Positions 2 through 62,127 of a stretch of DNA of 64,000 bases are shown one piece after another. A model generated the notes under the pieces. That model was not told the DNA's origin. It made no database searches and was given only the letters and a program-made list of their open reading frames with translations. Numbering within the stretch: position 1 is the stretch's first letter; the number at the start of each line of letters is the position of its first letter. Position numbers and translations under genes: made by a program. Source of the stretch: Rivularia sp. MS3 (GTDB lineage Bacteria > Cyanobacteriota > Cyanobacteriia > Cyanobacteriales > Nostocaceae); assembly GCA_019192545.1 (NCBI GenBank), contig JAHCMI010000017.1:62001-126000 (forward strand), read 5' to 3'.

Positions 2-1279
2 ATGACTTTGGCTTCCCAGGGGTTTAAAACGCTGTTCACAAGAGAAATTGCACAGAATCCTCTAAAAATTCCTGCCTATTTAATCAGCGGCACTTTTTTA
101 CAGTTTTTATTTAGCATTACTGGTTATGCAGTAATGGCACTTGTAGTACACGCTCTTCCCTACAATCAAAATACTTCGATAGTTTGTTACGTTTTAGGTT
201 TAGCTATCATCCCATTTTCTCTTTCTAACGTTACTGAAGCTATATTTCAAGCTGAAGAGAAAATGCATTTAATTGCTGTTAGTACGGTACCTGTTTATAT
301 CGTGCGCTTAATAGCGATTATTTGGGCTATGAATCTGAAATATAATATCGTCACTGTTGCGGTAATTATGGTGGCTTCAGAGTTGTTAATATTTTTTCTC
401 GAATGGTGTTTGGTAACGCAGTTTGTTAAATATGAATGGCGATTGAACTGGAAGTTCATGTGGGATACAACCAAAGCTTCTGGTTCTTTTATAGTTATTG
501 AAGGTATATCAGTTCTAGGTTATAGGCTTCAGGTTTTTATTCTTTCTTTATTAGGTGGTGAATTAGTTGTAGGGCTATACGGTGCAGTTTTACAGTTAAT
601 GCAGCCTTTTCAAATTATTTCCCATAGTGTTGTTTTAGCTGTTTTCCCTAAAATGTCTAAAGCTATTGATTCTGGAAAAGATAGTCAGCGTCAAATTACG
701 CAAATCACTATAGAGATATTGTTGATGGTTGCTTTACCTTTGCTGCTTGGAATTGTTTTTTTTGGTAAAGATTTACTTGTTTTGCTTTACCAAGAAGAAA
801 GTTTTACGGAAGCAAGTTTTGCTCTCAATGTATTTGCTATTGGATTAATTTCTTCTGCATTTATTAGACCGTTAAGTTACCTGTTAGTAGCTAATGGCTT
901 TGAGAAAGTTAATCTTTGGCAAGTATTTATTACTACTATTTTAGATTGTTTAATTAGTATTGTTCTTGTGTCTCAATATAAGTTAAACGGTGCAGCTATT
1001 ACGGTAATATTTACCGATTATGTGGCTCTACTAATTTATTATTTTGAATCTTCTAGACGATTATTTTCATTAGATTTATGGTCTACAGTCTTTCGTCCTT
1101 TGATAATAGGTGTTTTTATGCTACCTGTTTTTATAACTTTAAAAAGTTTCGGTTTAGATATTATCTTAGTTTTAATAATATCTAGCCTGATTTACTTTGC
1201 ATTAGTTGGTACTTTAGGATTTTATACAGTTTACCATTCTAAAGATGAGTGGGCAAAATTGTTACTTAAACGAAAATAA
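2..1279 (+). CDS. Wzx-type polysaccharide flippase, 5' end outside window
   Basis: Membrane protein of the MOP/polysaccharide-export superfamily that would move lipid-linked sugar repeat units across the plasma membrane. The 425 visible residues are almost entirely hydrophobic helices separated by short charged loops. The first residues (ASQGFKTLFTREIAQNP) match the region after the first two helices in this family, so roughly 60 residues are probably missing upstream and the ATG at base 2 is unlikely to be the true start. It ends in a basic tail (KLLLKRK). The next gene, a glycosyltransferase, begins about 40 bp downstream, followed by more sugar transferases, which fits a Wzx/Wzy-type pathway. 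The superfamily is confident; the exact substrate cannot be read. Confidence 0.85.
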   Translation: MTLASQGFKTLFTREIAQNPLKIPAYLISGTFLQFLFSITGYAVMALVVHALPYNQNTSIVCYVLGLAIIPFSLSNVTEAIFQAEEKMHLIAVSTVPVYIVRLIAIIWAMNLKYNIVTVAVIMVASELLIFFLEWCLVTQFVKYEWRLNWKFMWDTTKASGSFIVIEGISVLGYRLQVFILSLLGGELVVGLYGAVLQLMQPFQIISHSVVLAVFPKMSKAIDSGKDSQRQITQITIEILLMVALPLLLGIVFFGKDLLVLLYQEESFTEASFALNVFAIGLISSAFIRPLSYLLVANGFEKVNLWQVFITTILDCLISIVLVSQYKLNGAAITVIFTDYVALLIYYFESSRRLFSLDLWSTVFRPLIIGVFMLPVFITLKSFGLDIILVLIISSLIYFALVGTLGFYTVYHSKDEWAKLLLKRK

Positions 1280-1319
1280 TCAAAACTTAAGTTTTGGATT
1301 CTATAGAAAAGGTGGAATG

Positions 1320-2303
1320 ATGAATCCAGAAGTATCTGTAATTATTCTTGCTTATAATACTGAAAATTATATTGCCCAAGCAATAAATTCTGCATTAAGA
1401 CAAACTCAGAAAAACATTGAAATTATTGTAGTTGATGATGGTTCTGAAGATAAAACCTTAGAAATTGTTCAGAGCTTTTCTGACAAACGCATAAAAGTAT
1501 TGGTAAATCAGCGAAATAGAGGTCAAAACTTTTGCACTAATTTAGCCATAAAAGAGGCCCAAGGAAATTGGATAACTCGACTGGATTCAGATGACTGGTA
1601 TGCAGTCGATAGATTAGAAAAACTTTTAAATGTTGCTAATTTAGAGAATGTAGATATGATTGCTGATGACATATATTTTATTCAAGATAGAAAAGCTGTT
1701 CCTTGGAGTACTTTATTAATTCAAAGTAAATTCAAAATTAAAGAAAATACTATAATTTCTCCTATATCTTTTGTTGAAAAAGATGTACCCGGAATATGGG
1801 GTTTACCTTTAGGCTTAACTAAACCATTAATTAAAAGAGATTTTATTGTTAAGCATAATATCGAAAATAATGAAAATATTTTTCTTGGTGGAGACTTTTG
1901 GCTATATTTATCTTGTTTGGCATATGGAGCAAATTTTTTATTATTACCAAAACCTTATTATTTTTACCGTTCCCGTGATGGTTCCTTAGTAAAACAAAGT
2001 AATATTAAAAGAATTGAAGCATATTCTCAAGCAACAAAATATTATCTACAGCAGGATTATATACAAAATAATCAAAAATTACTTAACGCTTTACAAAAAC
2101 GTTTGATTTTGATTGAAAAAACTAAACCTTACTTTAAAGTTGTTGACTCTCTTAAACAAGCTAATTATCTCAAAGCTTTAATAAATATGGTAAAAAATCC
2201 TTATTTTTTCTATCATTTATGCACTCAATTACCAAGAATAATACGTCGTAGATTAGCTTTATGCTTCAATCAAATAAGCGTCAGCAAATCTAATTATTTA
2301 TAG
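1320..2303 (+). CDS. Family 2 glycosyltransferase
   Basis: GT-A fold glycosyltransferase expected to add a sugar to a lipid-linked oligosaccharide on the cytoplasmic face of the membrane. The N-terminus has the GT2 nucleotide-binding start (VSVIILAYN), the VVDDGS motif and the metal-binding LDSDDW around residue 90. The C-terminal third is Lys/Asn-rich and less conserved. The reading frame is open further upstream, but two consecutive ATG codons at 1317 and 1320 follow a purine-rich AAAGGTGG, and the family alignment begins here; 1320 gives the better spacing. It lies between a flippase and a GT4 in a same-strand run. Acceptor and donor cannot be predicted. Confidence 0.88.
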   Translation: MNPEVSVIILAYNTENYIAQAINSALRQTQKNIEIIVVDDGSEDKTLEIVQSFSDKRIKVLVNQRNRGQNFCTNLAIKEAQGNWITRLDSDDWYAVDRLEKLLNVANLENVDMIADDIYFIQDRKAVPWSTLLIQSKFKIKENTIISPISFVEKDVPGIWGLPLGLTKPLIKRDFIVKHNIENNENIFLGGDFWLYLSCLAYGANFLLLPKPYYFYRSRDGSLVKQSNIKRIEAYSQATKYYLQQDYIQNNQKLLNALQKRLILIEKTKPYFKVVDSLKQANYLKALINMVKNPYFFYHLCTQLPRIIRRRLALCFNQISVSKSNYL

Positions 2304-2353
2304 CAATTATAATTTTTCAATTCACAATTTTTTTCAGGGAATAAACAGACAAA

Positions 2354-3460
2354 ATGAAAGTAGCTTTATTACATTTTTGCTTTTACGAATATACCGTCCA
2401 ATTAGCTAACGCTTTAGCCGCTCAAGACATCGAGCTTACTTTAATACACCCCGAACAATTAACCGAACAAACACAAGGTTTACTAGATTCACGAATTAAG
2501 GTAATTACTTTTAAAAAATATCGCATCCGCGATTTGCGTAATTTATCAGCAATGGGTAAATTAATCAGTATCATTCGTAAGCTTGAACCCGATGTATTGC
2601 ACGTTCAAGAAACAAACGATCCTTGGTACGATTTAACTTTGTTGCTTAATAAAATGCCTCCTTTAGTGACGACTATTCACGATGTTTTTCGTCATCCTGG
2701 AGACAAAGATAATGTCATCGGTTCAGAATATACAAGACAAATTGCATTTTGGCGATCGCAACAGTTAATTGTTCATGCAAATTTTCTCAAGAATGCTTTG
2801 GTAAAAGAGTTTGCAGTTCCTCAAGAAAGGGTATGCATTCTGCCTCATGGAGAGTTGGGTAGTTTATATCAACGATTGGCAAAAGATAATAATACAGTTA
2901 GAGAACCCTATACTCTTTTGTTCTACGGACGTATTTGGGCTTACAAAGGTTTAAATTATCTGCTTGAAGCAATGCCATCAATAATAGAGAGCATTCCTCA
3001 AGTGAAATTAATTATTGCTGGAAAAGGAGAAAATTTCAAACGATATTTTCCTAATGGGCAGGATGAGAAACATTACGAAATTCTCAATAAATATATTCCA
3101 TCAGAAGATGTGGCAAGTCTTTTTAAACGTAGTGCCGCAGTTATTTTACCCTACATAGAAGCATCTCAGAGCGGTGTGGCATCTTTAGCTTATGCAATGG
3201 GTACCCCAGTTATTGCTTCGGAAATCGGTGGTTTGGCTGAAATGATTTGTTCGGAGCAAGATGGATTATTAGTTCCCCCTCGGGATGCAGATGCTTTAGC
3301 CGATGCGATTATTCGTTTGCTTAGCGATCGCAAATTACAGCAGCAGATCCAAACAGCAGCACTGTATCGTTGTGAAGATGATTTGAACTGGTTAAATATT
3401 GCTACTCAAACAATTGAAATTTATCGTAAAGCAATTTATCTCAAAAATATTTCTCGGTGA
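2354..3460 (+). CDS. Family 4 glycosyltransferase
   Basis: GT-B fold retaining glycosyltransferase, 368 residues, probably building the surface polysaccharide repeat unit. The N-terminal half has the Rossmann-like start (MKVALLHFCFYEYTVQLANAL) and an acceptor-side helix region with VLHVQE. The C-terminal half has LLFYGRIWAYKGLNYLLEA, then LIIAGKGE, then the donor-sugar region IEASQSGVASLAYAMGTPVI followed by an EIGGLAEMI segment. The leading Glu of the usual E-x7-E motif is seen at IEASQS; the second acidic residue is not obvious. It is followed directly by a ligase/polymerase-type gene with a 4-bp GTGA overlap, which implies translational coupling. Confidence 0.9.
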   Translation: MKVALLHFCFYEYTVQLANALAAQDIELTLIHPEQLTEQTQGLLDSRIKVITFKKYRIRDLRNLSAMGKLISIIRKLEPDVLHVQETNDPWYDLTLLLNKMPPLVTTIHDVFRHPGDKDNVIGSEYTRQIAFWRSQQLIVHANFLKNALVKEFAVPQERVCILPHGELGSLYQRLAKDNNTVREPYTLLFYGRIWAYKGLNYLLEAMPSIIESIPQVKLIIAGKGENFKRYFPNGQDEKHYEILNKYIPSEDVASLFKRSAAVILPYIEASQSGVASLAYAMGTPVIASEIGGLAEMICSEQDGLLVPPRDADALADAIIRLLSDRKLQQQIQTAALYRCEDDLNWLNIATQTIEIYRKAIYLKNISR

Positions 3461-4749
3461 AAGTAATGAAGAAACTTTTATTATTTACCGAAGAGGCATT
3501 TACAGTTGCATCTCTACTGCTGTACTCTGGAGGACCGTTAACAGTAATTTTATCCGGTGGAGCAAGTGAAGGAGATGATTCAGGAGAAACGAACACTTCT
3601 TTAATTTTAGTTTTATTCTTCTTCAATTATTTGGTAACTCTTTTCTTACTTATTCTGCGATGGAAAAAGGTTTTGCAAATAATGAAGAAAGAGAAAATTA
3701 TTGTATTATTAGTAGGAGTTGCTTTATTCTCTTTCTTATGGTCTTCTCAGCCAAAAAAAACTATAACTAGGGGAATTGCCATAGTTGGAACTAGCTTATT
3801 TGGTTTATATTTTGCTTCACGATATACCATCAAACAACAGTTGAAGCTTTTAGGCTGGATGTATGGCATTGCTGTAATATTTAGTTTTATATTTGTTGCA
3901 GCATTACCCAAGTATGGAATCATGGGCGGGGTTCATGCAGGAAAATGGCGAGGTATTTACAATCATAAAAATACTCTGGGTAAAGTCATTGTTCCAGGAA
4001 TTGCTGTCTTTTTACTATTAGCTAGTAGCTCGAAAAAATATAGTTGGCTGCTATGGATGTGTTTTAGCTTAGCTTTTATTCTTTTACTACGCTCTGGATC
4101 GACAACTTCCTTAATAAATGGCATATGCATAATCGCTGCTTGCATTTCCTTTCGAGTTTTTCGATGGCGAGACGATTTTATGGTGCCTAGCACAATTGCA
4201 ATCGGAAGTTTCGGCGCAATTTTTTATGTGATTATTTCGGTAACTACAGAAGCTATTCTCAAAGCACTTGGTAAAGATCCTACTCTTACCGGGCGTGGAG
4301 ATATGTGGCCTTATATCTTTGAAATGATTGGATATAAACCTTTTTTAGGTTACGGATATGGTGCCTTTTGGTACGGCCCAGATACCCCTTCTTTCTATAT
4401 TTGGCAGGCTACTGGATGGACTCCCCCTAATTCCCATAATGGTTTCTTAGACTTATGGTTACAAATTGGCTTGATAGGGTTATTAATTTATATATTTGGA
4501 TTTTTAACCATTACTTTACCAAAAGCATTTTATTGGTTGCGAACTACTAGAACATCTGAAGGATTCTGGCCTTTAACATATATGACCTATATGTTGCAGG
4601 CAAATATTAGTGAAACCACACTGATGATTCAAAACGATTTGTTCTGGGTAATTTATGTAGCAATCGCTTTTTCAGTCCAAATGCCACCAGAAAGTCACAA
4701 GTCAAAATATATAAATGAGTTAAATACTATTTCAAGCAGTTATCGTTAA
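3457..4749 (+). CDS. O-antigen ligase/polymerase (Wzy/WaaL-type) membrane protein
   Basis: Polytopic membrane protein of the O-antigen ligase family, which polymerises or transfers undecaprenyl-linked glycans on the outer face of the plasma membrane. About ten to twelve hydrophobic segments are visible. The conserved Wzy_C region sits at residues 265-345: GRGDMWPYIFEMIG, then KPFLGYGYGAFW, then a PNSHNGFLDLWLQIGLIG segment with the usual His-Asn pair in the periplasmic loop. The GTG start at 3457 overlaps the stop of the preceding glycosyltransferase; an ATG three codons later (3466) is an alternative. With the flippase it supplies the export and assembly half of the cluster. Ligase and polymerase cannot be told apart from sequence alone. 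Confidence 0.88.
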   Translation: MKVMKKLLLFTEEAFTVASLLLYSGGPLTVILSGGASEGDDSGETNTSLILVLFFFNYLVTLFLLILRWKKVLQIMKKEKIIVLLVGVALFSFLWSSQPKKTITRGIAIVGTSLFGLYFASRYTIKQQLKLLGWMYGIAVIFSFIFVAALPKYGIMGGVHAGKWRGIYNHKNTLGKVIVPGIAVFLLLASSSKKYSWLLWMCFSLAFILLLRSGSTTSLINGICIIAACISFRVFRWRDDFMVPSTIAIGSFGAIFYVIISVTTEAILKALGKDPTLTGRGDMWPYIFEMIGYKPFLGYGYGAFWYGPDTPSFYIWQATGWTPPNSHNGFLDLWLQIGLIGLLIYIFGFLTITLPKAFYWLRTTRTSEGFWPLTYMTYMLQANISETTLMIQNDLFWVIYVAIAFSVQMPPESHKSKYINELNTISSSYR

Positions 4750-4845: not shown

Positions 4846-7401
4846 ATGTTAAATAAAAATTTAGAATATTGGCAAAACAAACTGACTAGGTTACCAGTTT
4901 TAGAACTAAGCACTGATAAAGCAAGAACTAACGAGGGAGAATATGAGATTGGCATAGAAACCTTTACTTTTTCTGAGCAACTATGTTTATCATTAAAAGC
5001 GCTAAATCAAAATTGCCAAAATGGACTATTAAAAAGTTTATTAGCAGCGTTCAAATGCCTGCTGTATAAATACACAAATCAAGAAGATATAATAGTCGGC
5101 TCTTACATTCGTCTTCCAAACAATCTAGATTTTAATACATTAGCTTTCAGAAGCACTATCTCTGATAATCTTTGTTTTAATCAATTATTAGAACAAGTCA
5201 ATCAAACAGTAAGCGAAGACTTGAAGCATCAAGATTTTTCTTGGCAGCAACTGCTCAAAGGATTATCAACCAAAGACAATCATAACCATAAAAGCATCTT
5301 TCAAGTTATGTTTAGCTTACAAGATGCTTGTGTGATGGATGCACCATTACCGATTAATGTTGATGATTTGCAATTAGATTTATCTGTATTTGTTGTAGAA
5401 GCAGCAGAAGGCTTAAAAGGAACATTTATATACAATCAACAGCTATTCGAGCCGCAAACCATAAAGCGGATGATTAATCATTTCGAGAATTTAGTTTCAT
5501 TTGTTGTTGATAATCCCCAGACAAAAGTCGGTGAAATTGCAATTTTAAGCAACGCCGAACGGCATCAAATCTTAGTTGAGTGGAATCAAACACAATTAGA
5601 CTATCCCCACGACAAATGTATTCATCAACTTTTTGAGGAACAAGTAGCTAAAACACCAGATGCCTTAGCTGTTGTATTTGAACAACAACAGCTAACTTAC
5701 AGGCAATTAGATAATCGGGCAAATCAACTTGCCAACTATCTGCAAACTTTAGAAATTAAACCAGACGATAGGGTTGGTATTTGCATCAATCGCTGTTTGA
5801 ATATGGTAGTAGGCATACTAGCAATTCTCAAAGCAGGGGCTGCTTATATACCTATAGATCCTAATTATCCTCAAGAGCGTTTATCTCATATGCTCGATGA
5901 TTCAGGTATATCAGTATTGTTAACCACAGAAGACTTACTACCGGGGCTACCGCAAAACAAGGCAAAGTCAATCTGTTTGGATCGAGATTGGCAGGATTTA
6001 ATTGCTCATCACACTCAACAATCTCCCGAGAGCGATGTCAAGCCGTCAAATTTAGCTTACATCATCTACACTTCTGGCTCTACAGGTAAATCTAAAGGAG
6101 TAATGATCGAGCATCATTCTTTAGTTAATTTTACTACTACTGCCACAAAAGAATATGGAATAAATCATCGCGATCGGGTTCTGCAATTTGCCTCGATTAG
6201 TTTTGATGTCGCTGTGGAAGAAATGTATCCCACTCTTACTAATGGTGCAACTTTAATCCTGCGAACCGATGAGTTTTTAACCAACGGCGAAAGGATGCTG
6301 CAAAAATGCGATGAATGGGGAATAACTGTATTAGATTTACCTACGGCATACTGGCATCAATTAGCTTCCGATTTAGCAACAGGAGAATATCTTGCCCCTG
6401 AAAACTTAAGATTAGTAATTATCGGTGGGGAAGCAGTCATTCCAGAAAAAGTTAGAACATGGCAAAAATCTTTTCAGAATAATCAATATCCGGAATTAAT
6501 TAACACTTACGGACCTACCGAAGCGACTGTTGTTGTCACTAGATGTAAGCTGTCTGAATCTATTAATCAAGATACTCAGCTTGCACAAATGACAATTGGA
6601 AAACCTTTTGATAATGTCAAGATTTATATTCTAGATTCTGACTTGAATCCAGTTCCCATAGGAGTCCCTGGTGAATTACACATTGGTGGTTTATGCTTGG
6701 CACGCGGTTATCTTAACAGACCACAATTAACCGCACAAAAGTTTATCTGCGACCCCTTTAATCCCGGAATGAGAATCTATAAATCTGGAGATTTAGCCCG
6801 TTTTCTCCCCGATGGTAATATTGATTTTCTCGGACGCATCGACCATCAAGTCAAAATTCGCGGTTTTCGCATCGAGTTAGGAGAAATTGAAACTGTTCTC
6901 AATCAACATCCTGCTGTTAAACAAGCGATTGTGATTCCCCAAGAATACGACACTGGGGATAAACGTTTGATTGCTTATATTGTTCCTCAACCGACTCAAT
7001 CTCCTACAAATAAACAGTTAAAACAGTTTCTCAAAACCAGCCTTCCAGAATACATGATACCTTCGGGCTTTGTGATTTTAGAAGCTTTACCCTTAACCCC
7101 GAATGACAAAGTAGACCGTAAAGCTCTTCCCAAACCCGATAAAACTAATCTTAATTTAGAAGAAGAATATTTATCTGCTCGCAACGACGTTGAACAAAAA
7201 TTAGTTTCTCTTTGGGAACAGGCTTTTGGCATTCATCCAATTGGCATTAAAGATAATTTCTTTTCCTTGGGCGGTAATTCTTTAATGGCTACGTCAATGG
7301 TTGCTCAAATTGAAAATCTTTTTGGTCGAAAACTTACTCAAGCTGTATTTTTCCAAGCACCTACTATTCAACAATTAGCTGATTTTATTCAAGAAGAAAA
7401 T
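4846..7401 (+). repeat. 2.56-kb direct repeat, copy 1 (paired with 8510-11065)
   Basis: The first 852 codons of this gene repeat at 8510-11065, at an offset of 3664 bp. Reading both copies side by side I find only one different base, at 7364 versus 11028 (ACT to AAT, Thr to Asn), close to the 3' edge. Similarity drops sharply just before the ATG and again after 7401. The copies were not machine-aligned. Confidence 0.93.
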
Positions 7402-8109
7402 CACAGTAAAAACATTGCCAAAATCAATCATAATGGTAAAAAATTACCTTTGTTCATAATTTCTAATACTGGTTTTTTATACCAGGAAATGATAAAGTAT
7501 TTGGATTCAGAACAGCCGGTATACATAATTCAAGAAACATTAGATAAAGCTCCCGATATGGCATCACGCTGCATTCAACAAATACGGGACATCCAGCCAC
7601 AAGGTCCATATCATTTAATGGGTCATTCTTACGAAGGTTTGGTTACCTATGAAATTGGAAGGCAATTACAGGCACAAAATGAACAAGTTGCTTTTTTAGG
7701 GATGGTTGATACTCCCATTCCAGAAGTAGAAAATCGAGCAAAACGCGAAACATCGTTGAACAAACGCTATCGAAGGCTAAAAATTGTTTTTACACTCTCC
7801 CCAAAACATATATTCAACTTTTTTAAAGAACGAATAGACTACAGGCTTTCTAAAAAGTTTTATCCGTTGTTATCAACTCTAGAAAAACTAACTGACGAAC
7901 ATAAAGTTGAATCTTATCCAGGTAAGATAACTATCTACTCTGCAATCTATGAATTTTACAAGCTTGAAGACCCCTATCTCGGCTGGGATAAATGGGTTAC
8001 AGGTGGAATTGAAATACATGAAATACCCGGTACCCATCGCTCAATGCTATTAAGACCTGACAATGCTAAACTTCTAGCCCAAAAGCTCAGTAGTTGTTTA
8101 GAAAAGTAA
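4846..8109 (+). CDS. NRPS-like protein: half condensation, adenylation, carrier, thioesterase (copy 1)
   Basis: Non-ribosomal peptide synthetase-like protein, 1087 residues. Residues 1-245 match only the second half of a condensation domain (LEYWQNKLTRLPVLELSTDK onwards); the catalytic HHxxxDG half is absent. The adenylation domain runs from about 265 to 765, with TSGSTGKSKG near 407, FDVAVEE (A4, with the Asp that normally holds an amino group), YGPTEA near 555, YKSGDLARF near 645 and NDKVDRKAL near 752. The carrier domain has LGGNSL near 807 for phosphopantetheine. The thioesterase has GHSYEG near 926, an Asp in MVDTPIPE and a His in GTHRS near 1062. It should activate one amino acid-like substrate, load it and release it. 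It sits inside a polysaccharide cluster. A rho-independent terminator follows at once. Confidence 0.9.
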   Translation: MLNKNLEYWQNKLTRLPVLELSTDKARTNEGEYEIGIETFTFSEQLCLSLKALNQNCQNGLLKSLLAAFKCLLYKYTNQEDIIVGSYIRLPNNLDFNTLAFRSTISDNLCFNQLLEQVNQTVSEDLKHQDFSWQQLLKGLSTKDNHNHKSIFQVMFSLQDACVMDAPLPINVDDLQLDLSVFVVEAAEGLKGTFIYNQQLFEPQTIKRMINHFENLVSFVVDNPQTKVGEIAILSNAERHQILVEWNQTQLDYPHDKCIHQLFEEQVAKTPDALAVVFEQQQLTYRQLDNRANQLANYLQTLEIKPDDRVGICINRCLNMVVGILAILKAGAAYIPIDPNYPQERLSHMLDDSGISVLLTTEDLLPGLPQNKAKSICLDRDWQDLIAHHTQQSPESDVKPSNLAYIIYTSGSTGKSKGVMIEHHSLVNFTTTATKEYGINHRDRVLQFASISFDVAVEEMYPTLTNGATLILRTDEFLTNGERMLQKCDEWGITVLDLPTAYWHQLASDLATGEYLAPENLRLVIIGGEAVIPEKVRTWQKSFQNNQYPELINTYGPTEATVVVTRCKLSESINQDTQLAQMTIGKPFDNVKIYILDSDLNPVPIGVPGELHIGGLCLARGYLNRPQLTAQKFICDPFNPGMRIYKSGDLARFLPDGNIDFLGRIDHQVKIRGFRIELGEIETVLNQHPAVKQAIVIPQEYDTGDKRLIAYIVPQPTQSPTNKQLKQFLKTSLPEYMIPSGFVILEALPLTPNDKVDRKALPKPDKTNLNLEEEYLSARNDVEQKLVSLWEQAFGIHPIGIKDNFFSLGGNSLMATSMVAQIENLFGRKLTQAVFFQAPTIQQLADFIQEENHSKNIAKINHNGKKLPLFIISNTGFLYQEMIKYLDSEQPVYIIQETLDKAPDMASRCIQQIRDIQPQGPYHLMGHSYEGLVTYEIGRQLQAQNEQVAFLGMVDTPIPEVENRAKRETSLNKRYRRLKIVFTLSPKHIFNFFKERIDYRLSKKFYPLLSTLEKLTDEHKVESYPGKITIYSAIYEFYKLEDPYLGWDKWVTGGIEIHEIPGTHRSMLLRPDNAKLLAQKLSSCLEK

Positions 8110-8124
8110 GTTGTTCTATATTCT

Positions 8125-8153
8125 AAGTAAGGGCTGCGGCCCTTACTTTTTTT
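8125..8153 (+). terminator. Rho-independent terminator after NRPS-like copy 1
   Basis: A perfect 10-bp stem AAGTAAGGGC / GCCCTTACTT with a four-base loop is followed by a T run. It begins 15 bp after the stop codon, so the two NRPS-like genes are probably transcribed separately. Confidence 0.88.
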
Positions 8154-8509
8154 CAGTAATTAATAGTTGACATAAAAAATCATAAATACTACTTTTATGT
8201 ATTTATCTTTTCATCAATAAACTCTTCCTTTGTCTTATTGTATTACTTTTTATATTCCTGCTATTACAGAGATATTTAATCAAATTACTTACATAGTCTC
8301 AGACAGAATAAAATATTGAAGGCGCACAATCCTTAAAATATAAGCGAATATTTTATATATTAATATATTCTTGAAAATCTCTATTTATCTTTAAATGTTA
8401 ACGTTTTATATTAGCTGCTATCTTAAGTATATTTTCTAAAGAAATATAATATATTTTTTGATAAAAAAGAGATACGGGCAATAATTATATCTGTTATAAA
8501 GTATACATT
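8154..8509. other. AT-rich spacer between the two NRPS-like genes
   Basis: Very AT-rich, with no open frame of note. It probably holds the promoter of copy 2. The last 50 bp (TGATAAAAAAGAGATAC onwards) weakly resemble the bases before copy 1 (TGCTAAAAAAGATAC onwards), as expected if upstream regions of an older duplication have diverged. Confidence 0.6.
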
Positions 8510-11065
8510 ATGTTAAATAAAAATTTAGAATATTGGCAAAACAAACTGACTAGGTTACCAGTTTTAGAACTAAGCACTGATAAAGCAAGAACTAACGAGG
8601 GAGAATATGAGATTGGCATAGAAACCTTTACTTTTTCTGAGCAACTATGTTTATCATTAAAAGCGCTAAATCAAAATTGCCAAAATGGACTATTAAAAAG
8701 TTTATTAGCAGCGTTCAAATGCCTGCTGTATAAATACACAAATCAAGAAGATATAATAGTCGGCTCTTACATTCGTCTTCCAAACAATCTAGATTTTAAT
8801 ACATTAGCTTTCAGAAGCACTATCTCTGATAATCTTTGTTTTAATCAATTATTAGAACAAGTCAATCAAACAGTAAGCGAAGACTTGAAGCATCAAGATT
8901 TTTCTTGGCAGCAACTGCTCAAAGGATTATCAACCAAAGACAATCATAACCATAAAAGCATCTTTCAAGTTATGTTTAGCTTACAAGATGCTTGTGTGAT
9001 GGATGCACCATTACCGATTAATGTTGATGATTTGCAATTAGATTTATCTGTATTTGTTGTAGAAGCAGCAGAAGGCTTAAAAGGAACATTTATATACAAT
9101 CAACAGCTATTCGAGCCGCAAACCATAAAGCGGATGATTAATCATTTCGAGAATTTAGTTTCATTTGTTGTTGATAATCCCCAGACAAAAGTCGGTGAAA
9201 TTGCAATTTTAAGCAACGCCGAACGGCATCAAATCTTAGTTGAGTGGAATCAAACACAATTAGACTATCCCCACGACAAATGTATTCATCAACTTTTTGA
9301 GGAACAAGTAGCTAAAACACCAGATGCCTTAGCTGTTGTATTTGAACAACAACAGCTAACTTACAGGCAATTAGATAATCGGGCAAATCAACTTGCCAAC
9401 TATCTGCAAACTTTAGAAATTAAACCAGACGATAGGGTTGGTATTTGCATCAATCGCTGTTTGAATATGGTAGTAGGCATACTAGCAATTCTCAAAGCAG
9501 GGGCTGCTTATATACCTATAGATCCTAATTATCCTCAAGAGCGTTTATCTCATATGCTCGATGATTCAGGTATATCAGTATTGTTAACCACAGAAGACTT
9601 ACTACCGGGGCTACCGCAAAACAAGGCAAAGTCAATCTGTTTGGATCGAGATTGGCAGGATTTAATTGCTCATCACACTCAACAATCTCCCGAGAGCGAT
9701 GTCAAGCCGTCAAATTTAGCTTACATCATCTACACTTCTGGCTCTACAGGTAAATCTAAAGGAGTAATGATCGAGCATCATTCTTTAGTTAATTTTACTA
9801 CTACTGCCACAAAAGAATATGGAATAAATCATCGCGATCGGGTTCTGCAATTTGCCTCGATTAGTTTTGATGTCGCTGTGGAAGAAATGTATCCCACTCT
9901 TACTAATGGTGCAACTTTAATCCTGCGAACCGATGAGTTTTTAACCAACGGCGAAAGGATGCTGCAAAAATGCGATGAATGGGGAATAACTGTATTAGAT
10001 TTACCTACGGCATACTGGCATCAATTAGCTTCCGATTTAGCAACAGGAGAATATCTTGCCCCTGAAAACTTAAGATTAGTAATTATCGGTGGGGAAGCAG
10101 TCATTCCAGAAAAAGTTAGAACATGGCAAAAATCTTTTCAGAATAATCAATATCCGGAATTAATTAACACTTACGGACCTACCGAAGCGACTGTTGTTGT
10201 CACTAGATGTAAGCTGTCTGAATCTATTAATCAAGATACTCAGCTTGCACAAATGACAATTGGAAAACCTTTTGATAATGTCAAGATTTATATTCTAGAT
10301 TCTGACTTGAATCCAGTTCCCATAGGAGTCCCTGGTGAATTACACATTGGTGGTTTATGCTTGGCACGCGGTTATCTTAACAGACCACAATTAACCGCAC
10401 AAAAGTTTATCTGCGACCCCTTTAATCCCGGAATGAGAATCTATAAATCTGGAGATTTAGCCCGTTTTCTCCCCGATGGTAATATTGATTTTCTCGGACG
10501 CATCGACCATCAAGTCAAAATTCGCGGTTTTCGCATCGAGTTAGGAGAAATTGAAACTGTTCTCAATCAACATCCTGCTGTTAAACAAGCGATTGTGATT
10601 CCCCAAGAATACGACACTGGGGATAAACGTTTGATTGCTTATATTGTTCCTCAACCGACTCAATCTCCTACAAATAAACAGTTAAAACAGTTTCTCAAAA
10701 CCAGCCTTCCAGAATACATGATACCTTCGGGCTTTGTGATTTTAGAAGCTTTACCCTTAACCCCGAATGACAAAGTAGACCGTAAAGCTCTTCCCAAACC
10801 CGATAAAACTAATCTTAATTTAGAAGAAGAATATTTATCTGCTCGCAACGACGTTGAACAAAAATTAGTTTCTCTTTGGGAACAGGCTTTTGGCATTCAT
10901 CCAATTGGCATTAAAGATAATTTCTTTTCCTTGGGCGGTAATTCTTTAATGGCTACGTCAATGGTTGCTCAAATTGAAAATCTTTTTGGTCGAAAACTTA
11001 CTCAAGCTGTATTTTTCCAAGCACCTAATATTCAACAATTAGCTGATTTTATTCAAGAAGAAAAT
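8510..11065 (+). repeat. 2.56-kb direct repeat, copy 2 (paired with 4846-7401)
   Basis: Second copy of the near-identical block. The left edge coincides with the ATG and the right edge falls at the carrier-thioesterase linker, so the boundaries match coding units rather than random points. This fits a gene-conversion tract or a recent partial duplication over an older pair. Confidence 0.93.
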
Positions 11066-11779
11066 GTTATAGAAAGTGTTATAAGAATCAATTGTCATGG
11101 AAACAAACTGCCTCTATTTATTATTGCAAATAATGGCTTTTTGTATCAGCAAATGATTGACAAGTTAGATATAGAGCAACCAGTTTATATTGTACAAGAA
11201 CCTTTAGACAAAGCTCCCGATATGGCATCACGCTGTATTCAACAAATACGAGATATCCAGCCACAAGGCCCATACAATTTAATGGGTCATTCTTATGAAG
11301 GTTTGGTTACTTATGAAATAGCCCAACAGCTATATTTACAAAATGAGCAGATAGCTTTTTTAGGAATGCTTGATACGCCTACGCCAGAAGTAGAAAACAG
11401 AGCAGAAGAAGCTAGATTACTTTTCAAACGTTATCAACGGCTAAAAGTAGTTTTAGGCTTTTCTTGGAAAGATAAAACTAGCTTTTTTAAAGAACGAATA
11501 GAGTATAGACTTAACGAATCATTTCAACCATTAATGCCAACTCTGACTAAATTTATGAATGAATATGAAGTTAAACCATTACCGATTAAAGTAAATATTT
11601 TTGTAGCTACATTTGAGTTTTATGGGCTTGAAGATGCTAATTTTGGCTGGAATAAATGGACTAAGGAAGTGGAAATACATAAAATTCCTGGTACTCATCG
11701 TTCTATGTTGTTAAAGCCAGAAAATGCCCAACTTGTAGCCGAAAAATTAAGTGCCTGTTTGAATATTAAAAAAAAATAA
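8510..11779 (+). CDS. NRPS-like protein: half condensation, adenylation, carrier, thioesterase (copy 2)
   Basis: Tandem paralogue of the preceding gene, 1089 residues. Residues 1-852 equal copy 1 except Thr to Asn just after the carrier domain, so the half condensation domain, the adenylation domain and its substrate pocket, and the LGGNSL carrier site are the same. The thioesterase differs: it starts with VIESVIRINCHG instead of HSKNIAKINHNG and has many replacements, but keeps GHSYEG, LDTPTPE and GTHRS. The two proteins should load the same substrate but may release it differently. The best conserved part of the thioesterase pair lies around the nucleophile (APDMASRCIQQIRDIQPQGP is shared). 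Its own terminator follows at 11852. Confidence 0.9.
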   Translation: MLNKNLEYWQNKLTRLPVLELSTDKARTNEGEYEIGIETFTFSEQLCLSLKALNQNCQNGLLKSLLAAFKCLLYKYTNQEDIIVGSYIRLPNNLDFNTLAFRSTISDNLCFNQLLEQVNQTVSEDLKHQDFSWQQLLKGLSTKDNHNHKSIFQVMFSLQDACVMDAPLPINVDDLQLDLSVFVVEAAEGLKGTFIYNQQLFEPQTIKRMINHFENLVSFVVDNPQTKVGEIAILSNAERHQILVEWNQTQLDYPHDKCIHQLFEEQVAKTPDALAVVFEQQQLTYRQLDNRANQLANYLQTLEIKPDDRVGICINRCLNMVVGILAILKAGAAYIPIDPNYPQERLSHMLDDSGISVLLTTEDLLPGLPQNKAKSICLDRDWQDLIAHHTQQSPESDVKPSNLAYIIYTSGSTGKSKGVMIEHHSLVNFTTTATKEYGINHRDRVLQFASISFDVAVEEMYPTLTNGATLILRTDEFLTNGERMLQKCDEWGITVLDLPTAYWHQLASDLATGEYLAPENLRLVIIGGEAVIPEKVRTWQKSFQNNQYPELINTYGPTEATVVVTRCKLSESINQDTQLAQMTIGKPFDNVKIYILDSDLNPVPIGVPGELHIGGLCLARGYLNRPQLTAQKFICDPFNPGMRIYKSGDLARFLPDGNIDFLGRIDHQVKIRGFRIELGEIETVLNQHPAVKQAIVIPQEYDTGDKRLIAYIVPQPTQSPTNKQLKQFLKTSLPEYMIPSGFVILEALPLTPNDKVDRKALPKPDKTNLNLEEEYLSARNDVEQKLVSLWEQAFGIHPIGIKDNFFSLGGNSLMATSMVAQIENLFGRKLTQAVFFQAPNIQQLADFIQEENVIESVIRINCHGNKLPLFIIANNGFLYQQMIDKLDIEQPVYIVQEPLDKAPDMASRCIQQIRDIQPQGPYNLMGHSYEGLVTYEIAQQLYLQNEQIAFLGMLDTPTPEVENRAEEARLLFKRYQRLKVVLGFSWKDKTSFFKERIEYRLNESFQPLMPTLTKFMNEYEVKPLPIKVNIFVATFEFYGLEDANFGWNKWTKEVEIHKIPGTHRSMLLKPENAQLVAEKLSACLNIKKK

Positions 11780-11851: not shown

Positions 11852-11888
11852 AAGTATCTCCTGTAAATCAATTTACAGGTACTTTTTT
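11852..11888 (+). terminator. Rho-independent terminator after NRPS-like copy 2
   Basis: The stem CCTGTAAAT / ATTTACAGG, extended by AAGTA / TACTT across a three-base bulge, is followed by a run of six T. It lies about 75 bp after the stop codon. Confidence 0.8.
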
Positions 11889-12156: not shown

Positions 12157-13323
12157 ATGTTTATGAGCAAACTAAATATTCTCATGCTGGGTGCTAGCCT
12201 AGAACAAAATGGAGGTATAGCAACTGTTGAAAAACTGATACTTAAGCACGGAGCCGAAAATGTCAATTTTAGGCACATTACCAGTCATGATGAAGGAACA
12301 ATCCTCCATAGAATTAAAGTTTTTATCAAAGCCTTTACTGCTCTACTGTGGAATCTAATCGATAACAAAGCAGATATTTTACACGTACATATTTCAGATG
12401 GTGGCAGCTTGGTAAGAAAGGCGATTATTGCAATGACTGCTTTTATATTTAACAAGCCTATACTAATGCACGCTCATGGTGCTGAATTCCAAACGACTTA
12501 CTCCAAACTACCATTACTAGCTCAGCTTCTTTTTAGTAAAATATTTCGTTCCTGCGATAACTTTATTGTTCTTTCTAAAAATTGGGAAGAGTACTATACA
12601 AATAACTTGGGATTAAAAAAACAACAAGTTGTAGTTTTGCCTAATCCTACTGAATTACCGATACAAATACCTAATAGAGTTAATACTTCATCCATTAAAT
12701 TCGGCTTTTGTGGAAGAATCGGTTCGCGCAAAGGAACATTCGATTTAATTCAAGCCTTCGCAGAAATGCCTCAAAGCTTCAAAGAACGTTCGGAATTGAT
12801 TGTTGCCGGAGATGGAGATATTGAGCAAGCAGCTAAGTTAGCTGAAAGTCTAAATATTAAAAACAAGGTTCGATTCTTAGGATGGATAGACTCTAAAACC
12901 AGAGAAAAACTACTCGCTGATATTAACGTATTTATTTTACCTTCTTATAACGAAGGATTACCGATGGCTCTATTAGAAGCTATGGGCTGGGGCTTACCAG
13001 TAATAGTTACACCAGTAGGAGGTATACCCGAACTAATCACTTCGACAGAGAATGGTTTATTAGTCACACCCGGAGATATTCAGCAACTGTCTGACATGAT
13101 GCAATCATTGATTGAAAATCAGTCCTTAAGAGTCTCTTTAGGAAATGCAGCCAGAGAGTCTGTTATTCCTCTTGATGTTAAAACTTATAGCAATAACATG
13201 TATCAAATTTATAAATCGGTTATTGAGTGTAAATCAAAACGGTCCTCTCTTTTACATTCACTGTCGAGAAATTTTGCAGCGACTTTTAGGCGCTCAAATC
13301 TAATCCCACGCAATAAATATTGA
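12157..13323 (+). CDS. Family 4 glycosyltransferase
   Basis: GT-B retaining glycosyltransferase, 388 residues. The N-terminal domain has LNILMLGASLEQNGGIATVEK and a HVHISDGG segment. The C-terminal domain has FGFCGRIGSRKGTFDLIQAF, LIVAGDGD and a clear E-x7-E motif in NEGLPMALLEAMGWGLPVIV followed by TPVGGIPELI. It likely adds a sugar to the growing surface glycan. ATG codons at 12157 and 12163 are both in frame; neither has a strong ribosome-binding site. It has its own spacers and a terminator whose stem includes the stop codon. Confidence 0.9.
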   Translation: MFMSKLNILMLGASLEQNGGIATVEKLILKHGAENVNFRHITSHDEGTILHRIKVFIKAFTALLWNLIDNKADILHVHISDGGSLVRKAIIAMTAFIFNKPILMHAHGAEFQTTYSKLPLLAQLLFSKIFRSCDNFIVLSKNWEEYYTNNLGLKKQQVVVLPNPTELPIQIPNRVNTSSIKFGFCGRIGSRKGTFDLIQAFAEMPQSFKERSELIVAGDGDIEQAAKLAESLNIKNKVRFLGWIDSKTREKLLADINVFILPSYNEGLPMALLEAMGWGLPVIVTPVGGIPELITSTENGLLVTPGDIQQLSDMMQSLIENQSLRVSLGNAARESVIPLDVKTYSNNMYQIYKSVIECKSKRSSLLHSLSRNFAATFRRSNLIPRNKY

Positions 13324-13365
13324 ATAATTAATTTTTTTGTAGAGATTAATTATTCAAGTATTTTT
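13320..13365 (+). terminator. Terminator overlapping the glycosyltransferase stop codon
   Basis: A 13-bp perfect inverted repeat TTGAATAATTAAT / ATTAATTATTCAA with a 12-base loop is followed by GTATTTTT. The stem lacks GC pairs apart from one, so its strength is uncertain. The TGA stop lies inside the left arm. Confidence 0.65.
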
Positions 13366-13580
13366 CCTCCGGAAGTAAAAAATAAATGTATTTATTTTAA
13401 CCTTTTTTTTTATTTTGACTGAGTATATACTTAGTTATACTCATTTGAGTTATTCTTTGACGGCTTTTGAGCAGTTGAAAATACTCAAACCATTTTGAAA
13501 TTAGGGTTTTCTAATGCATTTACTTACAAGTGAAGTAATTTCGATGCAGTTTTTAGTTTAGCGAATGCTCAGAATAAATT

Positions 13581-14339
13581 ATGAGAGTAAATATTTGTGG
13601 AGTCAAAATTGACAATTATAGTTTTAATGAGGTGGTAGAACGTATAGTAGACCATGCCCTTACAGGTGTTGCTCCTGCTTACGTTGTTACTCCTAATGCA
13701 CAACATGTGTTAACCCTTCAGCGCGATAATTATTTCCGCAATATCTATAAAAAGGCATTTCTAGCGGTGCCTGATGGTGTTTCGCTATTATGGTCAGCTA
13801 AATTCTTGCAAACGCCTTTAAACGGTCGCGTTAACGGTACAGATTTATTTGAAGAGTTATCTGCTGTAGCTGAGAAGAAAGGACTCAAAGTCTTTTTACT
13901 AGGCGGCCGCCCTGGTGCTGCTGATGCGGCTAAAAGAACTTTACAAGCCAGACATCCAGACTTAAACATAGTTGGAACCCATTGTCCGCCTTATGGTTTT
14001 GAATCTCAACCAGAACAATTAGCCTTAATTAATTCCAAAATCAAAGCAGTAGCGCCAGATATTCTTTTTGTCGGATTAGGCGCTCCTAAACAGGAAAAAT
14101 GGATATACGAAAATTATCTAGAACTAGGAGTACCTGTTTCTTTAGGTATTGGAGTTAGTTTTGAATTAGTTGCGGATATGGTACAAAGAGCGCCTTTGTG
14201 GATGCAAAAATGGGGTTTGGAGTGGTTGTTCCGTTTGATTGTTGAACCAAAGCGTTTGTGGAAACGTTATATCATGGGAAATCCTCAGTTTATGTGGTTG
14301 GTAATTCAACAAAAGCTAGGTTTTCGTAAGCTAGCTTAA
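13581..14339 (+). CDS. WecG/TagA/CpsF family glycosyltransferase (GT26)
   Basis: GT26-family enzyme, 252 residues, a normal family length. Members transfer N-acetylmannosamine, N-acetylmannosaminuronate or similar sugars to a polyprenyl-diphosphate-linked acceptor at the inner membrane face. Visible landmarks are VVTPNAQHVL near residue 38, AVPDGVSLLW near 65, the glycine-rich LFLLGG-type strand (KVFLLGGRPGAADAA), and VGLGAPKQEKWI near 170. The C-terminal basic amphipathic region (LFRLIVEPKRLWKRYIMG) is typical for membrane attachment. The next gene starts 9 bp downstream, so the two probably form an operon. Donor sugar is not predictable. Confidence 0.93.
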   Translation: MRVNICGVKIDNYSFNEVVERIVDHALTGVAPAYVVTPNAQHVLTLQRDNYFRNIYKKAFLAVPDGVSLLWSAKFLQTPLNGRVNGTDLFEELSAVAEKKGLKVFLLGGRPGAADAAKRTLQARHPDLNIVGTHCPPYGFESQPEQLALINSKIKAVAPDILFVGLGAPKQEKWIYENYLELGVPVSLGIGVSFELVADMVQRAPLWMQKWGLEWLFRLIVEPKRLWKRYIMGNPQFMWLVIQQKLGFRKLA

Positions 14340-14348
14340 TAAGTAATC

Positions 14349-15527
14349 ATGTCAAAAAAAAAATTATTAAGTAGAAGGGCTTTTTTAGCTGCTATAGGCG
14401 GTTTAACGGCAATGGGTGCGGTAATAATAGGTAAAAAAGAATTAGAACGTCAGCAGATAATCGCTTTAGACGACCCAGATTGCGAATGTATCAAATATCC
14501 TGGGGATGAATCTTTAAAAGAACGTGCTGCTAAGAAAAAAATACTTTTTGGTACAGCTATACGACATCCATTGCTTTTAAATGATAAAGAATATGCTCAA
14601 AGTTTAATTAAAGAATGCTCAATATTAGTTTCAGAATGGGGATTTAAATGGTACGTTTACCCTAAAGCATTGCGTCCAACACCTGAATCTTTTGATTTTA
14701 CTGCGGCTGACTTAATGTATAATTTTGCTCGTACTCATGGCATGAAAGTTCGGGGGCATACATTAGTATGGTACATGTCTCTACCTCCTTGGTTTGAGAA
14801 GACAGTCAACCGTCAAAATGCTAAAGATATTCTTGAAAAACATATTAATACCGTTGTAGGACGTTACCGAGGAAACATGCATTCTTGGGATGTTGTCAAT
14901 GAAGCCATAGAACCAAAAGATGGACATCCTAACGGTTTAAGAAAAACGCCTTGGTTAGAGTTTATAGGAGAAGATTATATAGACCTTGCTTTTCGTTTAG
15001 CTCATAAAGCAGATCCAGAAGCAATGCTGGTTTATAACGATTATGGTTTAGTTTACGACGCTCCTGAAGACGAAGCCAAACGAAATGCCGTGATTAAACT
15101 TCTAAAGCGTTTAAAATCTCAGGGAACTCCTATTCACGCTTTAGGTTTGCAAGCTCATTTAGATGGCAGCGAAACTAGATTCAATCATCAGGTATTGAAA
15201 GATTTTTTAGCCCAAGTTGCCGATATGGGTTTAAAAATTATGATTACTGAGCTTGATGTTACTGATAAAGATTTACCAGGTGATATAAAAGTGCGGGACA
15301 GAATAGTTGCTAAAGCTTACAGCGATTATTTGCGCGTTGCGTTAGAAGAACCTGCGGTAATCGCGGTTTTAACTTGGGGGTTAAACGATCGACATAGTTG
15401 GTTGAATGAATTTCAACCTCGAGAAGATGGTGCATCAGTTCGTCCTTTACCACTCGACGCAGACGGAAAACGAAAACTTGCTTGGAATGCGATGGCTAAT
15501 GCTTTTGATGCAGCGCCAAGCCGTTAA
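14349..15527 (+). CDS. Tat-exported GH10 endo-1,4-beta-xylanase
   Basis: Glycoside hydrolase family 10 enzyme, 392 residues, that cleaves beta-1,4-xylan-like chains with retention. The N-terminus has a twin-arginine signal (LSRRAFLAAIGGLTAMGAVI), so it is expected to be folded before export. The catalytic acid/base is Glu185 in WDVVNEAIEP and the nucleophile Glu301 in MITELDVTD; GHTLVW and LGLQAHLDG are further GH10 landmarks. It starts 9 bp after a GT26 gene inside a polysaccharide locus. I infer that it trims or remodels the organism's own beta-1,4-linked exopolysaccharide rather than feeding on plant xylan. The enzyme family is certain; the true substrate is not. Confidence 0.93.
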   Translation: MSKKKLLSRRAFLAAIGGLTAMGAVIIGKKELERQQIIALDDPDCECIKYPGDESLKERAAKKKILFGTAIRHPLLLNDKEYAQSLIKECSILVSEWGFKWYVYPKALRPTPESFDFTAADLMYNFARTHGMKVRGHTLVWYMSLPPWFEKTVNRQNAKDILEKHINTVVGRYRGNMHSWDVVNEAIEPKDGHPNGLRKTPWLEFIGEDYIDLAFRLAHKADPEAMLVYNDYGLVYDAPEDEAKRNAVIKLLKRLKSQGTPIHALGLQAHLDGSETRFNHQVLKDFLAQVADMGLKIMITELDVTDKDLPGDIKVRDRIVAKAYSDYLRVALEEPAVIAVLTWGLNDRHSWLNEFQPREDGASVRPLPLDADGKRKLAWNAMANAFDAAPSR

Positions 15528-15757
15528 TCATAATTCGATTTAAATATTAATTGAATATGCATTTACGCAGCTACAGCAAACAATGTAATTTTCGCTTTTC
15601 ATTCTTATTACCTACTATTAATTGTACATATATCCCAAACGTATCTTTATAGTTTTAAAATTTAACTAAATCAAATTGCGTCAGGTATTTACGCAGTTTT
15701 TTTTATTAATTATTATAATTTATAAGTACTTTTATTTACAGATATTCTTAGAAAAAA

Positions 15758-15795
15758 TTAAACAAAGTAAAAAATATTTTTTTTACTTTGTTTAA
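15758..15795. repeat. 17-bp perfect AT-only-type inverted repeat
   Basis: TTAAACAAAGTAAAAAA and its exact complement flank a four-base loop. It lies in the 15528-15903 spacer between the xylanase and the sugar transferase, about 110 bp before the next start. It is too AT-rich and lacks a clear following T run for a confident terminator call; it may act as one or as a binding site. The rest of the spacer is AT-rich and unremarkable. Confidence 0.6.
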
Positions 15796-15903
15796 GTATA
15801 ATATACTTTTTGTCTACGAATATTTATTTATTTCTATGTCACAATGATGTCACTAAATTGAATTATAATTTGTATATAAGTAACCAAATTTTTATTAAAA
15901 GTT

Positions 15904-17349: not shown

Positions 17350-17493
17350 ATCGAGAATTGTTGCTGTAAGAGGATGTTTTAAAAGTAAGTAATGCGGCTA
17401 TCAAAAGAATAATTCAAATAATGTAGAGATGGATATTAATAACCTCTCTGCATTTTTTTACTGTTATTAATTCAAAATTACTTGATATAAATA

Positions 17494-17695
17494 GGGTCTG
17501 CTGAATTAATTTAAAACACTTATATTGCAAGCTTTTGGGGCTATTTAGACTGGAAAAAGTGCAAGAAAATAGGGATATAAGCCTTAAAAACCTTGCATCT
17601 CGCATTTTTTGGACTCCAAAAATTAGAGGTAAAACTGTTCCCTGTTCCCTTTTCCCTATTCCCTACCCTGATTAAAAGACTTTTTCAACAAACCC
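17494..17695. mobile_element. MITE-like element with 6-bp target duplication (family A)
   Basis: A 202-bp element begins GGGTCTGCTGAA and ends TTCAACAAACCC, an imperfect terminal inverted repeat (10 of 12). It is flanked on both sides by the hexamer TAAATA (17488-17493 and 17696-17701), a clean target duplication. It has no transposase; a short reverse-strand frame through it is not a gene. It would need a full-length insertion sequence elsewhere to move. Confidence 0.72.
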
Positions 17696-17733
17696 TAAAT
17701 AGGAATGGCAGCAAACGAAATATTTTTTTGTAA

Positions 17734-17794
17734 GATGCTGCGATACTTAGATTAATTTTCAAGGCAATAATAATAATTGTAGTGTCACGCACCA
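17734..17794 (-). repeat. 61-bp dispersed repeat, copy 1
   Basis: On the minus strand it starts GGTGCGTGACAC and ends near AGTATCGCAGCATC. Related copies lie at 29598-29658 and 56822-56878. The 17702-17946 spacer otherwise holds a small stem (TTCCGGTTGCACCGGAA) and purine-rich CAGAGGACGCAAAG-type filler common between cyanobacterial genes. Confidence 0.6.
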
Positions 17795-17946
17795 TCCGAG
17801 TCTTGTGACAGTTGCTGCCATTGCTGATAGATTCCGGTTGCACCGGAATTATAAAAAACCCCAGAGGACGCAAAGAGCGCAGAGGAAGAAGAGGAATCTC
17901 TAATCATTTCGATACAAACGTAAACGATATGACATCTTGCACTCTA

Positions 17947-18678: not shown

Positions 18679-18852
18679 GGATAAACTAAGGAATAATAAT
18701 CATAGGTGTACCTATTTTTATTTATCCCAGTTTGAGCCGCAGAATTTATCAAAAAAGAAGTAAATATTTAGTAAATATTTAGTAAATATTTCAAATCTCC
18801 ACATCCGAAGCAAGGATGGGAAAGTAAATAAATATCTTTCCTCATCCTGTAT

Positions 18853-19812: not shown

Positions 19813-20059
19813 TTTACCCCCTTCAAGAAGCAGAGAACGTAATTTAAAACTGTGTACTAATTTACCAATTGTAGGGATTAATGAGAAACAACTCAATAAT
19901 TATTAAGAGATGCTTCGTTAATGCAAACAATTAATTGCTAATAGAACTAGCAAATATTAAGTTTGTTTATAAAACTGTAAATATTTTTATCGAAGTATAT
20001 AAATTGATAAATTTAAATGACCTTCGCGGGCAGGAATGCCCGTACAAAAATAATTAACG

Positions 20060-62000: not shown

Positions 62001-62127
62001 TAACTTTTGACTCTTAATTTCTTTTTTATGGGCTTACAGGTTAATCTGTTAAGATTAATAATTGATAATCCATACCCTGTGGCAGAAAATTGGTAAATAG
62101 ATAGTTTTAAGGGTTGAAGCTGTAATA

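Follow-up and report, generated by a model that had tools for sequence, protein, structure and literature searches.

How can two neighbouring genes agree almost to the base over their first 852 codons when the codons that follow, and the DNA upstream, have little in common? The question is raised by a tandem pair of nonribosomal peptide synthetase (NRPS)-like genes, A and B, of Rivularia sp. MS3. The genes lie head to tail inside a polysaccharide locus. The DNA analysed here, called the window, is a stretch of 64,000 nucleotides (positions 62,001 to 126,000 of contig JAHCMI010000017.1, assembly GCA_019192545.1). We consider it very probable that A and B are an old tandem pair whose fronts undergo recurrent gene conversion. 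The two proteins would carry the same cargo and two different thioesterases (TEs), and would probably decorate an exopolysaccharide (EPS). Genes, homogenised block and domains are as follows.

4846–8109, forward strand: gene A, 1087 amino acids (aa); half condensation domain, adenylation domain, peptidyl carrier protein (PCP) and TE
4846–7401, forward strand: homogenised block, copy A, 2556 nt, one mismatch at 7364
4852–5574, forward strand: half condensation domain of A (Pfam profile positions 192–456 of 456 only)
5632–7110, forward strand: adenylation domain of A (AMP-binding and AMP-binding_C), pocket code DVEDIGTVVK
7195–7389, forward strand: PCP of A, carrier Ser at codon 812
7402–8109, forward strand: diverged linker and TE of A, Ser at codon 928, His at codon 1064
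8510–11779, forward strand: gene B, 1089 aa, laid out as gene A
8510–11065, forward strand: homogenised block, copy B, one mismatch at 11028; probable donor
8516–9238, forward strand: half condensation domain of B (Pfam profile positions 192–456 of 456 only)
9296–10774, forward strand: adenylation domain of B, pocket code DVEDIGTVVK
10859–11053, forward strand: PCP of B
11066–11779, forward strand: diverged linker and TE of B, Ser at codon 928, His at codon 1063

From the ATG, the two copies are identical for 2518 nt. One mismatch, 37 identical nt and then divergence from offset 2556 (codon 853) follow. The mismatch, at codon 840 (Thr/Asn), is the only one in the block. Counted by the Nei-Gojobori method, the 852 codons of the front offer 549.0 synonymous sites and hold no synonymous and one non-synonymous difference. 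Conversely, the 234 aligned codons of the TE part differ at proportions of 0.67 of synonymous sites (dS 1.64) and 0.21 of non-synonymous sites (dN 0.24). The longest identical run spans 2518 of 3258 aligned sites with 212 differences; the maximum in 2000 permutations was 216, and none reached the observed value. The base before the ATG already differs (C versus T), and an 18-nt match (89%, E 0.046) is all that the upstream regions have in common. A preliminary description of this stretch had read the front as identical bar one base, synonymous sites included, the remaining codons as clearly diverged, the upstream sequences as little alike, and the block as running from exactly the ATG to the PCP–TE linker. 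All of this is borne out. Synonymous divergence along the genes, which it proposed to plot, is zero in the front and saturated in the TE part, and so is not uniform.

The same locus was compared across relatives. When 217 genomes of the family were searched at DNA level (E ≤ 1e-150), the gene turned up in four, all of one genus: the window's own genome, Richelia sp. UBA3308 (G004), Calothrix parasitica NIES-267 (G005; NZ_AP018227.1, nearly complete) and G006. UBA3308 and G006 carry one gene each. NIES-267 carries a tandem pair at the same place and in the same gene order, with homogenised fronts, diverged TEs and spacers of 81 and 414 nt (96 and 400 in the window). In seven other genomes of the genus, a TE profile found UBA3308, NIES-267 (twice) and G006 at E < 1e-130, with weaker matches to a third NIES-267 sequence (4e-27), G001 (3e-14) and G007 (6e-15); there was none in G002 or G003 at 1e-10. 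Scanned against genome contigs, TE-A alone had no match, and the TE alignment hit 22 loci, three of them cyanobacterial and 19 distant. At the same place, Calothrix sp. CSU_2_0 (G083) has an adenylation–PCP–TE gene with no condensation match, split into two frames in a draft assembly (L076:8124-10714). In G003 (84% complete, 1230 contigs), contig C458 (L105/L167) ends 24 nt inside an NRPS gene, right after the Wzy-like gene; a break as at an assembly repeat is suggestive only.

The NIES-267 fronts are homogenised in pieces. In alignment coordinates, the two copies do not differ at nt 692–1340, 1770–2160 and 2233–2566 (identical blocks of 649, 391 and 334 nt). Divergence is 3.0% over nt 1–691, 17.1% over 1341–1769 and 9.7% over 2161–2232; nt 2567–2630 hold one difference, and from 2631 on divergence is 30.9%. 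We read this as a set of tracts of several ages. The patch at 1341–1769 (L039; alignment codons ~447–590) holds nine of the ten specificity-code residues. It looks like an older, unconverted remnant, because its copies still group together (99.7/100). The NIES-267 fronts stand at dS ~1.05 from those of the window. Since the pattern recurs in this second species, concerted evolution of the pair is, on the sequences compared, recurrent.

Front and TE tell different histories. Trees were built from six sequences, or seven when rooted with CSU_2_0. In the front tree, window A and B group together, as do NIES-267 A and B, each at 100/100. In the TE tree, window B groups with G006 at 100/100. NIES-267 B joins these two with support of 85/78 and 78/68 on unrooted DNA, 91/82 on rooted DNA and 96/97 on rooted protein. 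Window A groups with UBA3308 (96/93 on rooted protein). We applied approximately unbiased (AU) tests to four fixed trees. Front data rejected the TE tree (p 3.9e-5). TE data rejected the front tree (7.4e-8), and likewise another tree in which window A and B are sisters (4.3e-6); TE data from codon 881 on also rejected both such trees (2.6e-4 and 1.3e-5). Sister placement of NIES-267 A and B was not rejected by TE data (p 0.20, 0.13). Because the TE data reject both tested trees with A and B as sisters, the window pair would be older than the split from G006 and its front new, unless TE-A arrived laterally. With a second homogenised pair and a significant conflict between the trees, the case made in the preliminary description for gene conversion over an older pair is strengthened.

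Which copy was the donor? Identity to G006 is 84.9% for the shared front, 86.2% for TE-B and 70.5% for TE-A, and eight neighbouring genes are 80.0–90.5% identical. Conversion from B to A is most likely the direction in this genome, because the front and TE-B match G006 as the neighbouring genes do and TE-A does not. A DNA search of the genome itself gave no other close donor, the best-scoring match elsewhere being 70% identical. We propose that a homologous-recombination tract, copied from B onto A, makes the half condensation, adenylation and carrier parts identical. On the upstream side the tract would end with the homology, at the ATG; on the downstream side it would end where the TEs have become too unlike.

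The preliminary description went further and took the coincidence of block edges with coding-unit edges as a sign of selection for one loading half with two release halves. Only part of this stands. The ATG edge needs no selection, because the upstream DNA is nearly unrelated and alignable sequence begins there. The 3′ edge lies in the PCP–TE linker here (codon 852) and about 23 codons further, near the TE start, in NIES-267; since the edges differ, a fixed functional junction was rejected. What stands is that purifying selection likely keeps both TEs, because dN/dS in the TE region is ~0.15 (with dS saturated) and the Ser and His motifs are kept. Against a role for selection in the pattern, divergence too high for recombination would spare the TEs as well. 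TE lids lie 3′ of the conserved-Asp segment, and the most diverged TE part of the pair (codons ~960–1040) is also 3′ of it. Around the TE nucleophile (window ~7540–7659 and 11204–11323; alignment nt 2701–2820), A and B are 87–93% identical, above the surrounding TE sequence. This stretch is perhaps a second, older conversion tract, or perhaps under strong constraint.

What would the shared front load? Adenylation, PCP and TE domains gave Pfam matches above cut-offs in both proteins, and the carrier Ser, TE Ser and TE His are present (motifs GGNSL, SYEG and GTHRS). A complete condensation domain was found in neither protein, the Pfam match covering profile positions 192–456 of 456 only. The missing first half is where the HHxxxDG motif normally lies. 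Because that half is absent, the domain is not expected to form a peptide bond. Pocket code DVEDIGTVVK is common to window A, window B, UBA3308 and G006; NIES-267 has DVEDIGVVVK in A and DIEDIGTVVK in B. In a search of solved structures, the highest-scoring single adenylation stretch was ApnA A1 (PDB 4d4g). Table 2 of PMC5311044, the part of that paper used here, lists DVEDIGAIEK, DVEDIGAVEK and DVESIGAIEK for arginine-only genotypes a–c, and DVEDIGGVEK and DVEDIGGIEK for two genotypes taking arginine plus lysine. The window code shares eight of ten positions with DVEDIGAVEK and equally eight of ten with DVEDIGGVEK. A basic amino acid is our best guess for the cargo. An AlphaFold2 model of protein A (six-row alignment) had a mean pLDDT of 29.9 and was not used; PADLOC, run on three proteins, returned no match.

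Both proteins would thus charge their PCPs with one and the same amino acid, probably a basic, arginine-like one. The two different TEs would then each pass it to an acceptor of its own, or differ in the way they release it. As for the TEs, their likeliest use would be transfer to another acceptor, in the simplest case the polysaccharide or a precursor of it. The acceptor is probably the EPS made by the surrounding locus, and we infer aminoacylation of a polysaccharide by the NRPS-like pair. Genes A and B probably have separate promoters and terminators. Features flanking the pair are these.

2–4749, forward strand: upstream part of the locus; flippase, two glycosyltransferases and Wzy-like polymerase (Wzy label from reading, no NCBIfam family matched)
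8125–8148, forward strand: terminator-like hairpin and T run after gene A (consensus match only)
8423–8474, forward strand: element 5′ of gene B, common to the upstream region of the single gene of G006 (~55 nt, 85%)
11860–11879, forward strand: terminator-like hairpin and T run after gene B (consensus match only)
12157–17349, forward strand: downstream part of the locus; glycosyltransferase, WecG/TagA-type transferase, GH10-like xylanase and sugar-phosphate transferase

The terminator-like sites are a weak signal, since the window holds seven and 4.5 are expected by chance. TIGR03025 and TIGR00696 matched above cut-off and gene order is conserved, which places the locus among Wzx/Wzy-type EPS loci. 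Flippase, glycosyltransferase and xylanase matches were below family cut-offs, and the polymerase and Wzc labels come from reading. The EPS order is kept in UBA3308, NIES-267, G006 and CSU_2_0, except that one glycosyltransferase is missing in UBA3308 and CSU_2_0.

Wzy-like protein matches (E ≤ 1e-60) occur in 136 of 208 genomes of the family. From these, 20 loci were sampled, largely, though not strictly, in order of rank among genomes other than the four that carry the gene; one genome was taken twice, one locus came from the window's genus and CSU_2_0 was included again. An NRPS adenylation domain (tblastn, 1e-10) was found in nine (L106, L107, L109–L113, L119 and L122). At that threshold there was none in the other 11, two of which (L105, L123) reach a contig end. 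In five of the nine, all from other genera, a single frame of 1474–1499 aa joins a family-2 glycosyltransferase to a half condensation domain, adenylation domain, PCP and TE.

L109:3552-8015, reverse strand: glycosyltransferase–NRPS fusion frame
L110:11933-16354: glycosyltransferase–NRPS fusion frame
L111:4542-9023: glycosyltransferase–NRPS fusion frame
L112:7363-11859: glycosyltransferase–NRPS fusion frame
L113:8498-12979: glycosyltransferase–NRPS fusion frame

Pfam, run on one of the five (L112), confirmed the fusion, with a condensation match to profile positions 187–456. A query made of glycosyltransferase plus half condensation domain, run on 388 genomes of the order with three candidates scored per genome, matched with both parts in at least ten genomes from four families (G214, G050, G374, G413, G386, G472, G321, G395, G335 and G287). 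EPS markers stand beside six of 11 loci from this search (L155, L161–L165), in four of them the sugar-phosphate transferase only; no such marker was found in the 19.9 kb retrieved for each of the other five (L156–L160). L164 and L165 join a glycosyltransferase to an adenylation domain and have no half condensation match. At L155:7682-18607, a 3642-aa protein with a glycosyltransferase, three modules and a TE lies between a sugar-phosphate transferase and a flippase; its second module has code DIEDVGTVVK, close to that of the window. L166 encodes a three-module protein of 3293 aa that starts with a half condensation domain and adjoins a flippase-like gene. In L162, two glycosyltransferase–adenylation fusion frames (6750–10472, reverse strand; 14260–19899, forward strand) diverge around a sugar-phosphate transferase match. 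The code DILQLGMVWK is shared by the eight first modules analysed in f1, f2 and f16 genomes, and two from f32 have DFWNIGMVHK and DFWNVGMVHK; these two kinds resemble glycine and threonine codes, respectively. A single family of all truncated condensation domains was rejected, as a tree of 13 sequences set the window clade apart (100/100). In that tree, the fusion half domains nest among the complete condensation domains of L155, with weak inner support. Truncation at this point of the domain may have occurred more than once.

Other histories could leave such a pair. B might have been duplicated recently, after which the TE and upstream region of A were replaced by the diverged allele of a related strain. 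The A-type TE does exist in another lineage, that of UBA3308, a possible donor (96/93 on protein, 94/69 on DNA), and the one gene of G006 is of B type and has B-like sequence upstream. However, two separate replacements would be needed, one stopping at the ATG and one at the linker, and the tandem arrangement of NIES-267, with its similar spacers, is explained more simply by an old pair; we regard this account as unlikely. Less likely still is that modestly differing copies received one consensus for their shared part during assembly. The genome (9.19 Mb, 174 contigs; the window on contig C69) looks like a draft with repeats lost. It gave no 16S or 23S match, so repeats may be lost elsewhere; 16S matched in two of three relatives, and the ribosomal RNA searches, which miss some genes, matched in only nine and ten of 14 control genomes. 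The only mismatch also sits 38 nt from the block end, where reads reach unique sequence. Yet an assembler may merge copies a few bases apart, not copies at dS 1.6. By our reasoning, one shared and three unique segments leave a single full path (ligase–front–TE A–front–TE B), so both copies must exist. The NIES-267 copies, too, were resolved, with 101 differences in alignment nt 1–2630. Transposon copies were uninformative as a gauge of repeat resolution (nine matches, no separate identical pair). Strong selection on protein and RNA could in principle hold the fronts identical with no recombination, but nothing was found in favour of this, and between the window front and that of G006, 37% of synonymous sites are changed (dS 0.51). 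Silent sites are thus free to change, and we give this account next to no weight.

Several points tell against recurrent conversion of an old pair as the explanation. The clade of window B, G006 and NIES-267 B has support of only 78–85/68–78 on unrooted DNA, and that of window A with UBA3308 only 94/69 on rooted DNA. An independent duplication in NIES-267 is possible, since TE data allow its A and B as sisters. The assembly being a draft, exact identity may be overstated and a few front differences may be hidden. The amino acid, the acceptor and the link to polysaccharide are predictions, and the code fits arginine and arginine plus lysine equally. On function, the pair might instead make a small diffusible amino-acid product, or load another NRPS in trans, its EPS setting being chance. 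In its favour, contigs C164 and C134 carry DNA matches that indicate further NRPS genes in the genome, 11 of the 20 related EPS loci show no NRPS, and, among the 11 loci with glycosyltransferase–adenylation fusions, five show no EPS marker in the 19.9 kb retrieved for each. Against chance, the gene or a relative stands in the same EPS order in five genomes, bar the missing glycosyltransferase, and NRPS genes occur in nine of the 20 loci, 19 of which are from other genera. We hold this alternative to be the less probable one, though it deserves serious consideration.

How does the pair compare with known systems? The part of PMC4256081 considered here describes concerted evolution of NRPS and polyketide synthase domains: recombination within a cluster homogenises its domains, which then group in trees by cluster of origin. 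Domains that have diverged in function, or have become too different, are proposed there to be spared. The window resembles this but has two single-module tandem genes, edges at the ATG and the carrier–TE linker and an EPS setting, and the second species' pair reads as a mosaic of several ages. As in recombination of adenylation-core subdomains (PMC8097286, PMC9205934, in the sections used), edges spare linkers and interfaces, and in NIES-267 the patch extends over the pocket. Whereas such events introduce a new pocket, conversion in the window erases differences. Compared with ApnA A1 (PMC5311044), the window code and DVEDIGAVEK disagree at positions 322 and 331, and a one-module protein takes the place of an assembly line. 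Lincosamide synthetase, from the description in part of PMC4351081, uses an NRPS adenylation domain and carrier to couple an amino acid with an amino sugar, which the window pair might resemble; its product is a small antibiotic, not a polysaccharide, and its partner enzymes are others. Searches of one open-access library, which lacks most subscription journals, judged by title and the beginning of the abstract, turned up no paper that treats this pair, NRPS modules within cyanobacterial EPS loci or the glycosyltransferase–NRPS fusion. The words 'nonribosomal' and 'peptide synthetase' are absent from the main text of PMC4594306, on cyanobacterial EPS genes.

Gene conversion of NRPS domains is known. 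Here, a pair, a mosaic second pair and single-copy relatives occur at one locus, and the parts that conversion copies can be told directly from those it leaves alone: loading parts are shared, release parts kept apart. The locus would be a natural domain-swap experiment that marks a tolerated PCP–TE junction. It is possible, though we put it forward tentatively and think it somewhat doubtful, that filamentous cyanobacteria decorate their exopolysaccharides with amino acids or short peptides by means of NRPS modules in Wzx/Wzy loci, some fused to glycosyltransferases. The window pair would then use one shared front, kept identical by conversion, and two diverged TEs as transferases that attach one basic amino acid at two different positions. 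If NRPS modules do act on polysaccharide, this would be a route to cyanobacterial slime that bears amino acids or peptides, with the glycosyltransferase–NRPS fusions as its clearest mark.

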